Made by a program: the position numbers and the translations under genes. From the NCBI RefSeq assembly GCF_013823385.1, contig NZ_PNMA01000002.1:1-64000 (forward strand): DNA of 64,000 bases, read 5' to 3'. This document shows positions 2,814-57,520 of the stretch, piece after piece. The notes below the pieces were generated by a model. That model saw only the letters and a list, made by a program, of their open reading frames with translations, was not told the origin of the DNA and made no database searches. Source of the stretch: Hyphomonas sp. GTDB lineage: Bacteria; Pseudomonadota; Alphaproteobacteria; Caulobacterales; Hyphomonadaceae. The first letter of the stretch is position 1; the number at the start of each line of letters is the position of its first letter.

Positions 2814-3713
2814 ATGCGCCTGCCCACATCATTGACCCAATGCCTGCTAACCGGCGCTGCCGCCGCCCTTCTGGCTGCCTGCGCCCCGCCTGCCGAAACG
2901 CCCTCTGCCGAAGCGCCCCTGCCTGCTGCCGAAACCGCAGACGCAGCCGCCCCGGCGCTCTACGTCGATGTGCTCGATTGCGGCACCATCGCCATCTCCG
3001 ATCTCGATGCCTTCTCCTCGGCCGGCGACTATGCTGGCCAGGCCGACGAGTTCACGAACACCTGCTATCTGATCAACCACCCGAATGGCCGCCTGCTGTG
3101 GGATCTTGGCCTGCCGTCCCAGCTCGTCGGCCTGCCGCCCTTCACCCAGCAGATATTCACCGTATCGGTCGAACGCTCGATCACAGACCAGCTCGCCGAT
3201 CTCGGCGTGGTGCCGTCCGAACTCACCTATGTCTCGATCTCGCATGCCCATTTCGACCATATCGGCCAGGCCGATCAGGTTCAGGGCGCCACCTGGCTCG
3301 TGAACCAGACCGAGTATGACTACATGTTCCCGGCCGATGGCTCGCCCCCGGCGGACCCGTCACTGGCGGCAAACTTCGCCCTGTTCCAGGCGATGGACAA
3401 ACAGATCATCAGCGATGGGCATGACGTGTTCGGCGATGGCAGCGTGGTGATCTTCCAGACGCCTGGCCATACGCCGGGGCATTCATCGCTCCAGCTGACC
3501 CTGCCGGAAACCGGGCCGGTCCTGCTGACCGGCGACCTCTATCACCGCACCGAGAGCCGCGAGCTTGGCCGCGTGCCGCGCTTCAACACGAGCGAAGAGA
3601 ATACCCTCGCCTCGATGGCCGCATTCGAAGCGCGGGCCACCGACCTTGGCGCCAAGGTCGTCATCCAGCATGAGCCGGCTGACATTGAGCCGCTGGGCGG
3701 AGCTATTCGCTAG
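2814..3713 (+). CDS. Metallo-beta-lactamase-fold lactonase-like lipoprotein
   Basis: This 299-residue protein resembles N-acyl homoserine lactonases. The N-terminus is a lipoprotein signal with lipobox LLAAC (Cys at about residue 23), followed by an Ala/Pro-rich linker, so the enzyme is probably membrane-anchored in the periplasm. The dizinc site is complete: SHAHFDHIG (HxHxDH), TPGHTPGHSS, the bridging Asp in TGDLYH, and a final His in IQHEPAD. Family members open the lactone ring of acyl homoserine lactones, but other lactones or esters are possible. It starts 28 bases after hisI and overlaps the convergent DUF389 gene by 11 bases. Confidence 0.82.
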   Translation: MRLPTSLTQCLLTGAAAALLAACAPPAETPSAEAPLPAAETADAAAPALYVDVLDCGTIAISDLDAFSSAGDYAGQADEFTNTCYLINHPNGRLLWDLGLPSQLVGLPPFTQQIFTVSVERSITDQLADLGVVPSELTYVSISHAHFDHIGQADQVQGATWLVNQTEYDYMFPADGSPPADPSLAANFALFQAMDKQIISDGHDVFGDGSVVIFQTPGHTPGHSSLQLTLPETGPVLLTGDLYHRTESRELGRVPRFNTSEENTLASMAAFEARATDLGAKVVIQHEPADIEPLGGAIR

Positions 3714-53309: not shown

Positions 53310-54239
53310 ATGGATGACCGTTCGCGTATTGGCGCTTTTCTCGAAATGATGTCGGCCGAGCGGGGCGCAAGCCCCAACACGCTCGATGCCTATGGCCGTG
53401 ACCTGCTGGACGCGTCCGAATTCTGCGGCCTGCGCCTCGTCACCGCCTCCTCGGCAGACCTGTCGAACTGGCTGGCAGACCTCGCCGCGCGCGGGATGGC
53501 GCCCTCCACGCAGGCCCGGAAACTGTCGGCTGTGCGCCGGTTTTTCCGCTTTCTCTTCCAGGAAGGCGACCGGAAGGACGACCCCACCGCCCGCCTCGAC
53601 GGCCCCTCCCCCGAACGGGAAGTGCCCGATGTGCTCTCCCGCGAGGAGGTTACCCGGCTGATCGCCGCCTGCGAACCGGATAAACGCCTCAAATGCCTGG
53701 TCGAACTGCTCTATGGCGCGGGCCTGCGCGCTTCCGAACTCGTGACGCTGCGGGTGGGAAACCTGCCCCGCCGCAAGGCCGGCCAATGGATGAGCGCGGA
53801 TATCATCATCCGCGGCAAGGGCGGCAAGGACCGGCTGTGCCCGCTGGGCCGCGCCGCCCTCATCGCGCTGGCCGAATGGCTGGATGTGCGTGAGGCAAGC
53901 CTGCCGGATAACCCCCTGCTGCGCAGCAAGGCGGAGGGTTTCGTCTTTCCCTCGCGCGGCAAGGAAGGCCATCTCACCCGCCGCCGCCTGGGGCAGATGC
54001 TGGAAGAACTCGCCACAAAAGCAGGAATAAGGTCAGAGCGGGTCTACCCCCACGCCCTGCGCCATGCGTACGCGACCCATCTGCTGCAGGGCGGGGCGGA
54101 CCTCCGGGTTGTGCAGACCCTTCTCGGTCACGCCGACATCTCCACGACGCAGATCTATACCCACGTCCTGACCGATGAACTCGCCGAACTGCTGGAAACC
54201 GCTCACCCCATGGCAGTGGCAGGCCGCAGCCGCCGGTAA
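53310..54239 (+). CDS. xerD: Tyrosine site-specific recombinase XerD
   Basis: A 309-residue tyrosine recombinase that, with XerC, resolves chromosome dimers at dif. The N-terminal SAM-like domain (residues 1-95) binds the core site. The catalytic residues are seen: Arg in GAGLRASEL, Lys in RGKGGKDR, His/Arg in HALRHAYATHL, His in LLGHADISTTQIY and Tyr in TQIYTHV. Its place next to aroK is usual in alphaproteobacteria; it is a housekeeping enzyme and not a sign of a mobile element. Confidence 0.93.
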   Translation: MDDRSRIGAFLEMMSAERGASPNTLDAYGRDLLDASEFCGLRLVTASSADLSNWLADLAARGMAPSTQARKLSAVRRFFRFLFQEGDRKDDPTARLDGPSPEREVPDVLSREEVTRLIAACEPDKRLKCLVELLYGAGLRASELVTLRVGNLPRRKAGQWMSADIIIRGKGGKDRLCPLGRAALIALAEWLDVREASLPDNPLLRSKAEGFVFPSRGKEGHLTRRRLGQMLEELATKAGIRSERVYPHALRHAYATHLLQGGADLRVVQTLLGHADISTTQIYTHVLTDELAELLETAHPMAVAGRSRR

Positions 54240-54538: not shown

Positions 54539-55594
54539 ATGAGCCAGAAAACGCCGCGCAATTTCTTCAAGCCGCTCGCCATCGGCGCCCCGGAGCCTTA
54601 CCGCGACCTGCCGGTGAAACTCGAGCGGATGATCCATTTCGTCCCGCCGCATCTGGACAAGGTGCGTGCCAAGGTGCCCGAAATGGCGCCGACCGTGGAC
54701 GTGATGCTGGCAAATCTGGAAGACGCGATCCCGGCCGATGCCAAGGACGCGGCCCGCGCCGGGGCCATCGAGATGGCCAACATGTATGACTGGCAGGGCA
54801 AGGGCACCGGCTTCTGGAGCCGCGTGAACTGTCTCAATTCCCCCTGGTTCCAGGAGGATGTGTCCGAGCTTGTCCTGAAGGCCGGCCACCAGCTGGACGT
54901 GATCATGCTTCCCAAGGTCGAAGGCCCATGGGACATCCATTTTGCTGACCAGTATGTGGCGCAACTAGAGGCCAAGGCGGGACTGAAACGCCCCATCCTC
55001 TTCCATGCCATCCTTGAAACCGCCGAAGGCGTCGCCCGCGTCGAGGAGATCGCCCTCGCCTCTCCCCGGATGCAGGGCATCAGCCTTGGCCCGGCAGACC
55101 TTGCCGCCAGCCGCAAGATGAAGACCACCCGCGTCGGCGGCGGGCACCCCTTCTACCGCGTGATCGAGGACCCCAAAGCAGACGGCACCCCCCGGATGAG
55201 CGCCCAGCAGGACCCCTGGCACTACACCCTCGCCCGCCTCGTAGACGCCTGCCGCATGGCCGGAATCAACGCCTTCTACGGCCCCTTCGGCGATATTGCC
55301 GACCTTGATGCCTGCGAGCAGCAGTTCCGCAACGCCTTCCTGCTCGGTTGCGCGGGCACCTGGAGCCTGCACCCCAACCAGATCGCGATCGCCAAGCGCG
55401 TCTTCAGCCCCGATCCGGATGAGGTGAAATTCGCCCGCAAGATCCTCGCCGCCATGCCTGATGGCACCGGCGTTGCCATGATCGACGGCAAGATGCAGGA
55501 TGACGCCACCTGGAAACAGGCCAAGGTGATCTCCGATCTGGCCGATCTGGTGGCCGCGAAAGACCCCGACCTTGCCGCCGCCTATGCGGGCTGA
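54539..55594 (+). CDS. mcl: Malyl-CoA/beta-methylmalyl-CoA lyase (Chloroflexus type)
   Basis: A 351-residue enzyme of the HpcH/HpaI-citrate-lyase-beta family. Its sequence ([75 protein letters not shown]) matches the Chloroflexus malyl-CoA lyase type more than the Rhodobacter Mcl1 N-terminus. It cleaves beta-methylmalyl-CoA to glyoxylate and propionyl-CoA, and malyl-CoA to glyoxylate and acetyl-CoA, in the ethylmalonyl-CoA pathway. The start has GAGGGAG upstream. Its last 132 bases are repeated at 56873-57004 around an inserted gene. Confidence 0.88.
55463..55594 (+). repeat. 132-bp direct repeat, left copy (mcl 3' end)
   Basis: The final 132 bases of mcl including the stop. It is identical to 56873-57004 except at 55501 (T here, C in the right copy), a synonymous change in an Asp codon. 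Confidence 0.95.
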
Positions 55595-55618
55595 CTAGGA
55601 AGACGAGATCAAGCCGAC

Positions 55619-56791
55619 TCAATTCGTTGTCACTTCCGCTTTGATGATCCTGCCATCAGAAGCCAGAACCTCACAAACAAAGGTCTCCTCCGCATCCATG
55701 GGTCGGAGCACCACTCTCCACGTTAAGCCCAACTCTCTGGTTTGGAAGTCAGATAGTCGAATGCTCAGAAAATGGTTCTTGTACTTGGCGATGAAGTCTG
55801 AGCCGCCGTTGGCGTCTGCAATGCCCATTAGCGATTCAGTGGTGGTGAACTTTTCCCAGTGTCTTGGTTCAAGTTGACCGGAAACGTCTTTTGAACCTGT
55901 CGATGGAGGCATGGCCAAAAGCTCGTCCGGATAAGGGCGTGGTCTCGCATGACGGTAATGGTCTACTTCGAGAACATGTAACATATCGCCCAAAGCAAAG
56001 AACAAAAGGCCAGACTCCGAAACATCGACATGCATTTCGCGTTCGGAGATGTCGTCTGCAAAACGGAATGACCACCGCTCGACATTGGGGTGCTTGACTC
56101 TCGATGCTGACCAGTCGCCGATGGGCTTCCCAAAGTGCGCATCGTAGATTCTGCTGAATTGTGGATAGACAGGCGACAAAGCTGCCGAGGCTGCGCGCGC
56201 GGCGTCATGAAAGCCGAATTTGCCCTCTGACTGTTTTACTAGGGATGATGAAGCCCATGCACCATTTGCTGCATCGCGCACATATTGTTCAAGGGTGGGC
56301 AAGCAAGCCATCAGGAGCGTTTTGGTCTCCTGCAAGCAGGCTTCGAGCTCCTCCTTCGTGCCGTAGCACCAGTCCATGCGCCTCCGATCGAAAAACTGGA
56401 CCAAATTGAATTTTGACCAGCTCCGTGGCGCATTGGGGCACCTCAAACGGATCCAAACGGTATAGGTCTTCCCCATGCCGAAATGATGGATGCGCTCGAA
56501 CTCCAGATCGAGTTCAACTTCCGGCGCAATGATCAGCCGGAAGCGATGCTCATTCGAGTCGGCCTCAACAAATTTGAAGCTAGGGAAATTCTGTTTCACA
56601 AAACGCTTCAATGCGCTCGGAAGGTTTACTCGACCTACACCGCGTCCGCCAAACACGGCGTCCATGCGTTTGCCGCTACTGTCACTTGTCAGGTTGGGAA
56701 AATCCGCCCGACGATACTCCAGTTTTCGCATTTCCGCACAAACTGCAGCGTGTATCTCCAAGCAAACGGATTCGCCCAGCTCCACGCCCAT
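55619..56791 (-). CDS. Unrecognised 390-residue protein in inserted segment
   Basis: A 390-residue soluble protein without signal peptide or membrane helix. I recognise no family. The N-terminal half has a patterned beta/alpha block (PSALKRFVKQNFPSFKFVEA, then HRFRLIIAPEVELDLEFERI) reminiscent of DUF4304-like folds, but this is only an impression. The middle has a conserved-looking YDAHFGKPIGDW; the end carries beta strands (TFVCEVLASDGRIIKAEVTT). A good ribosome site (GGGGGAAAG) precedes the ATG. Codon use is unlike the neighbours. It is the only gene of the segment; a defence or cargo role is speculation. Confidence 0.75.
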   Translation of the reverse strand: MGVELGESVCLEIHAAVCAEMRKLEYRRADFPNLTSDSSGKRMDAVFGGRGVGRVNLPSALKRFVKQNFPSFKFVEADSNEHRFRLIIAPEVELDLEFERIHHFGMGKTYTVWIRLRCPNAPRSWSKFNLVQFFDRRRMDWCYGTKEELEACLQETKTLLMACLPTLEQYVRDAANGAWASSSLVKQSEGKFGFHDAARAASAALSPVYPQFSRIYDAHFGKPIGDWSASRVKHPNVERWSFRFADDISEREMHVDVSESGLLFFALGDMLHVLEVDHYRHARPRPYPDELLAMPPSTGSKDVSGQLEPRHWEKFTTTESLMGIADANGGSDFIAKYKNHFLSIRLSDFQTRELGLTWRVVLRPMDAEETFVCEVLASDGRIIKAEVTTN

Positions 56792-56836
56792 GCTTTCCCC
56801 CAGTCCGAAAGGTCATATCGCTAAACTAGACGCAAT

Positions 56837-56857
56837 CGCGAGTTGCGCAACTCCGCG
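56837..56857. promoter_or_regulatory. Palindrome upstream of the inserted gene
   Basis: GAGTTGCGCAACTC (56840-56853) is a perfect 14-base palindrome, flanked by CGC and CCGCG so that the symmetry nearly extends. It lies about 50-60 bases upstream of the start at 56791 on the minus strand and could be an operator or a recombination-related site. Confidence 0.5.
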
Positions 56858-56872
56858 CGATGGGAGTCAAGC

Positions 56873-57004
56873 GGCACCGGCGTTGCCATGATCGACGGCA
56901 AGATGCAGGACGACGCCACCTGGAAACAGGCCAAGGTGATCTCCGATCTGGCCGATCTGGTGGCCGCGAAAGACCCCGACCTTGCCGCCGCCTATGCGGG
57001 CTGA
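56873..57004 (+). repeat. 132-bp direct repeat, right copy (orphan mcl 3' end)
   Basis: A copy of the mcl end including its stop, with one synonymous difference, not joined to any lyase start. The codons from an ATG at 56888 could be read but have no binding site. It probably marks the ancestral mcl end. Confidence 0.95.
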
Positions 57005-57091
57005 ATTGGCCCTCGCCAAACGCCGCAGAGACGCATAGCTTCACCCTGACAAACCCTGCCCAGACGGGTCAGGAGCAGACAGGAGCATGCC

Positions 57092-57520
57092 ATGTTGAGG
57101 ACACTCGCGGGACTTTTCGGAACAATCCTGGTCATTTCAGGACACGCTCAGGCCGATGAAGTCTGGACGACGCCCGTGGGCGAGATTGTCTATGAGGCTG
57201 ACCTTGAGACGGGTGAAGCGGTCCTCTCCTTTCCGGGCGAGAGCGGCGAGCGCCTGCTGGGTATCTTTCCCGGCCTGGCGGGGGTCAGCGAGGGCCGCGG
57301 CTATTTTGCTGGCATCTGGATCGATCCGGATGCCGCCACCGAAGGCCCCTGCCCCGGCGCGATGGCCGACCCGGTGAATGGCGGAATAACCTATAGCTGG
57401 GGCCGGATGGACCTGATCTTCACCGAGCCGGACTTTCCGGCTGGGTTCGTCGTTGTGAAAGGGGCCTGTTTCGACCCCCCGACAGACTATCTGATCGCAG
57501 AACCGATGGTGGGAGAGTAG
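57092..57520 (+). CDS. Secreted protein, unrecognised
   Basis: A 142-residue protein with a signal peptide (MLRTLAGLFGTILVISGHAQA, cleaved after AQA). The mature part is acidic with beta-rich features, an aromatic segment ITYSWGRMDLIFTEPDF, and two cysteines (GPCPG and KGACFD) that could form a disulfide. It is probably periplasmic or secreted. No family is recognised. It starts a short cluster running right, 4 bases before the NTF2-like gene. Confidence 0.7.
   Translation: MLRTLAGLFGTILVISGHAQADEVWTTPVGEIVYEADLETGEAVLSFPGESGERLLGIFPGLAGVSEGRGYFAGIWIDPDAATEGPCPGAMADPVNGGITYSWGRMDLIFTEPDFPAGFVVVKGACFDPPTDYLIAEPMVGE

Follow-up and report, generated by a model that had tools for sequence, protein, structure and literature searches.

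The last 132 bp of a malyl-CoA-lyase-like gene, mcl, stand twice in direct orientation on the two sides of a low-GC insert with one orphan gene, in a window (the whole stretch of DNA analysed) of 64 kb from a Hyphomonas genome. A second insert in that genome, behind a UPF0262 gene, is built in the same way. The two cases are examples of a known pattern, insertion with a long target duplication, with orphan cargo and a suggestive polarity between the repeat copies. We propose that at both loci a gene end and its neighbour gene were imported by a single crossover after circularisation of donor DNA, an explanation to which we give about an even chance and which we favour over the action of an integrase and over duplication at a staggered break.

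The insert behind mcl

The features of the locus are as follows.

54539..55594, + strand: mcl, the intact target gene, 351 aa (Pfam PF03328, E=7.2e-28)
55463..55594, + strand: left repeat copy, in frame, ending at the mcl stop codon
55595..56872, no strand: insert of 1,278 bp, low GC, with an empty site in relatives
55619..56791, - strand: cargo gene, 390 aa, convergent with mcl, of no known family
56840..56853, no strand: 14-bp perfect palindrome upstream of the cargo gene
56873..57004, + strand: right repeat copy, an orphan mcl end joined to the native flank
57005..57520, + strand: native right flank, with the next gene at 57092-57520

The product of mcl is an HpcH/HpaI aldolase / citrate-lyase-beta family protein. 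The NCBIfam CitE and malyl-CoA lyase models match it under their cut-offs, and the name mcl is a label from the first sequence reading; the open reading frame list places the start at an upstream TTG (54515). That sequence-only reading had described the last 132 bases of the gene as present twice, directly oriented and with a single synonymous difference, and sequence comparison agrees. The copies at 55463-55594 and 56873-57004 differ only at offset 38, where the left copy has T and the right copy C (GAT and GAC, both Asp). Their identity is bounded by a codon boundary at one end and the TGA stop codon at the other, and flank comparison found no matching bases beyond the repeat on either side. 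The repeat search, run with 14-base seeds, gave the pair as 55463-55599 and 56873-57009 with a spacing of 1410. Because it is the sole direct repeat of at least 40 bp reported in the 64-kb window, chance does not explain it.

The roughly 1.28 kb between the copies had been called foreign-looking DNA with one gene, and both parts of this description hold. The 1,278-bp insert has 53.0% GC, whereas the 2.38 Mb of the genome surveyed have 63.1%, and only 0.6% of 11,768 windows of insert size are as low. Its single gene ends 24 bp from the mcl stop codon, and the remaining open reading frames (80-133 aa) overlap the 390-aa frame. The 351-aa mcl frame is whole and the orphan end lies at the right, also as first described. 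Family searches and a comparison of the insert ends bear out the earlier impression that integrase, transposase and terminal repeats are lacking: no recombinase was found in the insert, none of the Pfam, PHROG, PADLOC and NCBIfam models matches its 390-aa frame, the two 60-bp insert ends share no inverted repeat longer than 6 bp, and none of the hallmarks of a transposon or IS (terminal inverted repeats, a transposase, a short target duplication) was found at mcl. The window contains no tRNA gene. The 14-bp palindrome occurs once in the 2.38 Mb, and its position makes it a possible, putative operator of the cargo gene.

Relatives of the strain retain the empty site. In one relative (G022, locus L003) the mcl stop codon is followed directly by what is the right flank in the window; at L003, L007 and L008 this flank begins 0-2 bp behind mcl and the repeat is present as a single copy, and L004 looks likewise empty by eye. 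The 43-aa mcl end was matched in 101 of 105 family genomes and unmatched in 4, and a second mcl end occurs in the window's genome only (0 of the 104 others, 100 of which have one end and 4 none). The earlier expectation that some relatives would show one copy without insert was borne out, and these empty sites and single ends rule out an arrangement common to all relatives. mcl was matched in all 42 genus genomes, though in G031 over just 88 bp at a contig end; 29 of the 41 relatives were compared in sequence at this locus, and a relative of the gene that follows mcl (57092-57520) is present at 12 of these 29 loci. No genome searched other than the window's has the insertion with duplication at mcl.

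The cargo gene itself has few relatives. Its product, unmatched in the four family libraries named above, matched PDB sequences only at E 0.04 or worse. AlphaFold models were poor (mean pLDDT 44 and 46), with moderate confidence only at about residues 57-175, and Foldseek with the predicted model returned no match at E<=0.001. Relatives were found in 3 of 105 family genomes, the strain's own counted: the sole full-length one, at 29% identity, is in Ponticaulis koreensis (G079; Hyphomonadaceae), and the third is a weak match of 51 aa in G075 (E=2.7e-4). The 385 class genomes and the 398 phylum genomes yielded only the strain's own copy, and plasmids, phages and viral contigs yielded none. A contig pattern scan with the single cargo protein found nothing and missed the Ponticaulis relative, whereas a scan with a two-row cargo alignment found the Ponticaulis locus only; such scans therefore miss distant relatives.

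The Ponticaulis relative (L036:10075-11599) lies between genes for a ribonucleotide reductase and a TonB receptor, in a strain-specific replacement of about 1.5 kb for the 32 intergenic bp that G081 has there. On one side that insert directly meets the stop codon of the TonB-receptor gene, a convergent neighbour. A search near the relative gave no direct repeats of at least 30 bp, and the notion that this cargo family always sits in gene-end duplications is rejected on these grounds. By eye, a short inverted repeat lies upstream of the Ponticaulis gene too.

A second insert behind a UPF0262 gene

Gene-end repeats were surveyed in 2,382,284 of the 4,179,865 bases (57%) of the 172-contig assembly. 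A direct-repeat scan of the 3' ends of 2,140 greedily predicted genes left, after sorting by eye, two stop-ending cases, mcl and a UPF0262 gene; the mirrored scan of 5' ends gave no comparable case among top rows judged by eye. The other direct repeats in the 2.38 Mb, sorted by eye and not one by one, were attributed to paralogues, transposase copies, ankyrin-like repeats, and dispersed palindromic repeats or terminators. Shorter rows of 16-46 bp, including a 46-bp pair in the 5' control, were left out of the sorting.

Some of the dispersed palindromic repeats fall within a coding frame. A 953-aa Lhr-type helicase frame (L120:501-3362, contig C8; Pfam WH_Lhr and DEAD_assoc) contains three copies, around 1474-1591, 2476-2593 and 3024-3093, whose in-frame translation gives runs such as SSPPPPAGEVAPKATEGGAPR. 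Further G-rich palindromic repeats lie on C9 and C21.

The second case occupies C1:88785-89495 (L064:8785-9495). The target gene is identified as UPF0262 by Pfam (E=8.4e-71), and its final 48 bp, together with 2 bp beyond, stand both at C1:88785-88834 and at 89446-89495, with two mismatches. The 611-bp insert has a GC content of 47.0%, as low as only 0.08% of windows, and contains a single orphan gene (about 158 aa), convergent with UPF0262, whose stop codon stands directly behind the UPF0262 stop. Matches of this cargo to known families are weak (Pfam best E=0.016; PADLOC ThsA E=0.0019; NCBIfam best E=0.0021, under its cut-off), and no restriction-modification match is among them. The cargo searches revealed no integrase or transposase in the insert and no match in 104 other family genomes, 384 other class genomes, or plasmids, phages and viral contigs. 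Three relatives (G010, G017 and G007; L173-L175) have the empty site, where the query aligns in two halves with 48-50 bp in common.

The resident arrangement at this site differs from that at mcl in one respect. In G010 a 34-bp stretch (L173:1515-1548) is common to the 3' ends of the UPF0262 gene and of an epimerase gene that runs towards it, and in the window's genome the duplication has set the two reading frames apart without loss, both being whole. The right UPF0262 copy is therefore not an orphan. A relative of the epimerase gene is present at 3 of the 29 UPF0262 loci. The mcl and UPF0262 repeats have no common word longer than 7 bp, compared with a mean of 7.4 in shuffled sequences, and the longest word common to the two inserts is shorter than 10 bp. 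In both cases the repeat ends within 2 bp of the stop codon, exactly at it for mcl and 2 bp beyond for UPF0262.

Origin of the duplicated ends

Differences between the copies hint at which end came from outside. At the variable mcl site, C, the right-copy base, is found in 25 of the 29 relatives examined and T, the left-copy base, in 4. The UPF0262 end is matched at 40 of 50 positions or more at 6 of 29 loci, and these have the right-copy base in five and three cases at the two variable sites. Both right-copy bases occur together in G017 and G010, the two nearest relatives, and also in G022; G007, as near as G022, has the bases of neither copy, and one of the left-copy bases is found in G028. 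Over its full length, the right UPF0262 copy agrees with G010 (L173) at 50 of 50 positions and with G017 (L174) at 49 of 50. All three differences, one in mcl and two in UPF0262, are thereby placed in the left copies, and all are synonymous. We suggest that at both loci the left copy, which belongs to the intact gene, may be the imported end and the right copy the resident one. This polarity is suggestive only, since it depends on three substitutions, which would all fall in left copies with a chance of 1/8 if either copy were equally prone.

We propose the following route. The donor fragment would have come from a lineage close to the strain's own, one whose cargo gene lay directly downstream of mcl and convergent with it. 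Joining of the fragment's ends would have produced a circle of about 1.41 kb in which the terminal 132 bp of the donor mcl survived. This circle would then have been inserted by a single crossover of RecA type within the 132-bp end that it had in common with the resident gene. The left copy would then be the donor end that completes mcl, followed by the cargo gene, and the resident end would persist as the right copy. Circularisation would have left its scar at the right junction (56872/56873), and the left junction (55594/55595) would be the original point of divergence between donor and resident sequence. The 50-bp UPF0262 case could have arisen by the same circle and single crossover. The duplication, the empty sites, the low GC, the orphan cargo, the second case and the placement of the base differences are observed; the circle, the crossover and the identity of the donor are all elements that we infer.

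A comparable process is described, in the cited sections, for E. coli, where linear DNA with one-sided homology was partly degraded and recircularised and then entered by a single crossover, yielding duplications (PMC3240628). There, 56 of 60 clones were positive in a duplication PCR, the 14 duplications sequenced measured 109-950 bp, and such duplications were commoner than the 4 deletions ascribed to homology-facilitated illegitimate recombination, HFIR (PMC3240628). Those events resemble ours in being gene-end duplications of variable length with foreign DNA attached; they arose, according to the same sections (PMC3240628), during laboratory conjugation of a plasmid, whereas the mcl and UPF0262 cases are natural and their donor is unseen.

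Import by single crossover is consistent with the single repeat copy at the empty sites of both genes, with the lack of matching bases next to the repeats and of an inverted repeat longer than 6 bp at the insert ends, and with the repeat lengths, 132 and 50 bp, which are as random end loss would give. Other observations sit less easily with it. The abutment of both inserts on stop codons is not specifically predicted and is the least explained part, although it becomes less odd because the DNA behind these stops varies in the genus (the neighbour relatives at 12 of 29 and 3 of 29 loci). The left-copy base also occurs in the 4 mcl relatives and in G028, and 50 bp is short for a crossover. Since the genome has no Ku match, with a model that among 14 control genomes was positive in Bacillus subtilis alone, non-homologous end joining was rejected and circularisation would need another kind of end joining. 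Neither a donor with the cargo gene directly behind mcl nor a circular, plasmid or phage form was found in the plasmids, phages, viral contigs and genomes searched, by pattern scans of limited reach and among genomes that include no known conspecific strain.

The same topology would result from a remnant or non-autonomous site-specific element at gene 3' ends, a CIME-like attL-cargo-attR arrangement that brings its own synonymous version of the gene end and is mobilised by an integrase in trans or has lost its own by internal deletion. This alternative fits the reconstituted gene ends with their synonymous differences only, it can draw on at least 15 tyrosine-recombinase-domain matches in the genome, and an integrase-driven element is the best account of repeats that end at the mcl stop codon and 2 bp past that of UPF0262. 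We nevertheless consider it unlikely, as family searches found no integrase in either insert, no other family genome has a second mcl end, and the two gene ends differ in repeat length and share words only at the shuffled level, and the inserts have no word of 10 bp or longer in common. A XerD-like tyrosine recombinase gene (window 53310-54239) does lie 300 bp upstream of mcl, and near mcl it is the only integrase-domain match among the matches listed. It is not favoured as the agent because it is a usual neighbour in the genus: among the matches listed, 40 of 42 genus genomes have an integrase-domain match within about 4 kb upstream of mcl, and in the two that lack one (G031 and G041) mcl is at or near a contig end. 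The Campbell-type integration first suggested for mcl thus keeps its topology and gains the left-copy variants, but its site-specific element finds no support in an integrase, in second mcl ends of relatives, or in a core common with UPF0262.

Two further routes were weighed. A foreign fragment could have been captured at a staggered double-strand break whose long overhang was filled in, a true target-site duplication, and this would readily explain an exact duplication of variable length with no bases matching beyond it. Its copies, however, would be identical at the start, and the unconstrained right mcl copy should then change first; the three differences lie in left copies, which fits import and fits a filled-in break poorly. 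The absence of a Ku match and the stop codons within 2 bp of both boundaries, for which a break offers no reason, also argue against this route, which we regard as improbable. Additive HFIR, in which a crossover upstream in the gene is followed by copying of the donor through the stop codon into the cargo gene and by an illegitimate return to the resident gene 132 or 50 bp ahead of its stop, would give an identical product and the same polarity of differences without need of a circle, and joints free of homology occurred in 3 of 4 HFIR clones in E. coli (cited parts of PMC3240628). As described there, HFIR generally deletes DNA of about the insert's size and mostly uses 3-10 bp of microhomology (PMC3240628); here there are a duplication and no microhomology, and we doubt strongly that HFIR was responsible.

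The arrangement might, finally, have arisen in the computer. In a draft of 172 contigs, the 132-bp repeat could conceivably have led to the misplacement of a free 1.41-kb circle or of a chimeric join, in that a circle together with an empty site would give identical junctions and a repeat of this length may exceed short-read k-mers. The mcl copies, though, differ by one base, and an artefact at mcl is unlikely given that UPF0262 has the same anatomy with a 50-bp repeat, within ordinary read span. We assign this explanation very little weight, and return to import by a single crossover as the reading we prefer.

Known systems and meaning

Integrative elements occupy the 3' ends of protein-coding genes, among them e14 and phage 21 in icd and ICESt1 and CIMEs in fda. 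They resemble the present cases in that the gene end is duplicated and the element-borne end keeps the gene intact, but they carry or derive from integrase-bearing elements, of which none is seen at mcl or UPF0262: our searches found neither an integrase inside the inserts nor, in the 104 other family genomes, a second mcl end.

The closest match is the insertion with long target duplication described for Helicobacter pylori strains 26695 and J99 (Nobusato et al. 2000, as presented in parts of PMC3031569, PMC1643837, PMC4978471 and PMC3154945). In both systems a gene-sized insert lies between long direct copies, variable in length, of a sequence that occurs once in the other genome. Both loci have a repeat that is single at the empty site of relatives, both repeats (132 and 50 bp) are variable and far longer than transposon target duplications, and both inserts are free of a transposase and of terminal inverted repeats, a criterion that we set here. 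The H. pylori duplications are frequently linked to restriction-modification genes, as these parts of the sources put it (PMC1643837, PMC3031569, PMC4978471, PMC3154945); such cargo is frequent, not obligatory, and our two cargos are orphans with no restriction-modification match. The repeats here, in contrast to what is described there, have a stop codon no more than 2 bp from their end, and their differences point to the gene-side copy as imported. In the literature on long target duplications returned by topical, not locus-aimed, searches, the mcl and UPF0262 loci are not mentioned.

The Ponticaulis relative calls to mind another pattern, the deletion-coupled insertions of Haloquadratum, which the cited excerpt presents as foreign DNA, particular to a strain, that is set exactly into a syntenic backbone (PMC3119063). 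It likewise sits in a replacement; such insertions, as far as that excerpt goes, lose resident DNA and leave no duplication, unlike mcl and UPF0262 (PMC3119063). A circle-insertion model has been put forward, in the part of the source cited, for Arabidopsis genes that lie between genic repeats (PMC2869330).

These comparisons suggest that what is new here are orphan, non-restriction cargos, repeats whose ends lie no further than 2 bp from a stop codon, and a polarity hinting at an imported copy. Beyond the two loci, one may envisage a recombinase-free uptake of single orphan genes, set convergently against a resident stop codon, in which a replacement end is imported and the old end stays as a scar; we offer this wider idea as speculative and rather doubtful.

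Little is known of how orphan genes get into bacterial chromosomes when no recombinase is involved, and the mcl and UPF0262 insertions keep both scars together with base differences that may separate the imported from the resident end. With conspecific genomes, insertion with long target duplication, an old descriptive pattern, becomes testable. If the wider idea is true, long gene-end duplications would mark recent single-gene acquisitions, and the duplication would let both of two overlapping convergent genes survive an insertion, as UPF0262 and the epimerase gene have done.
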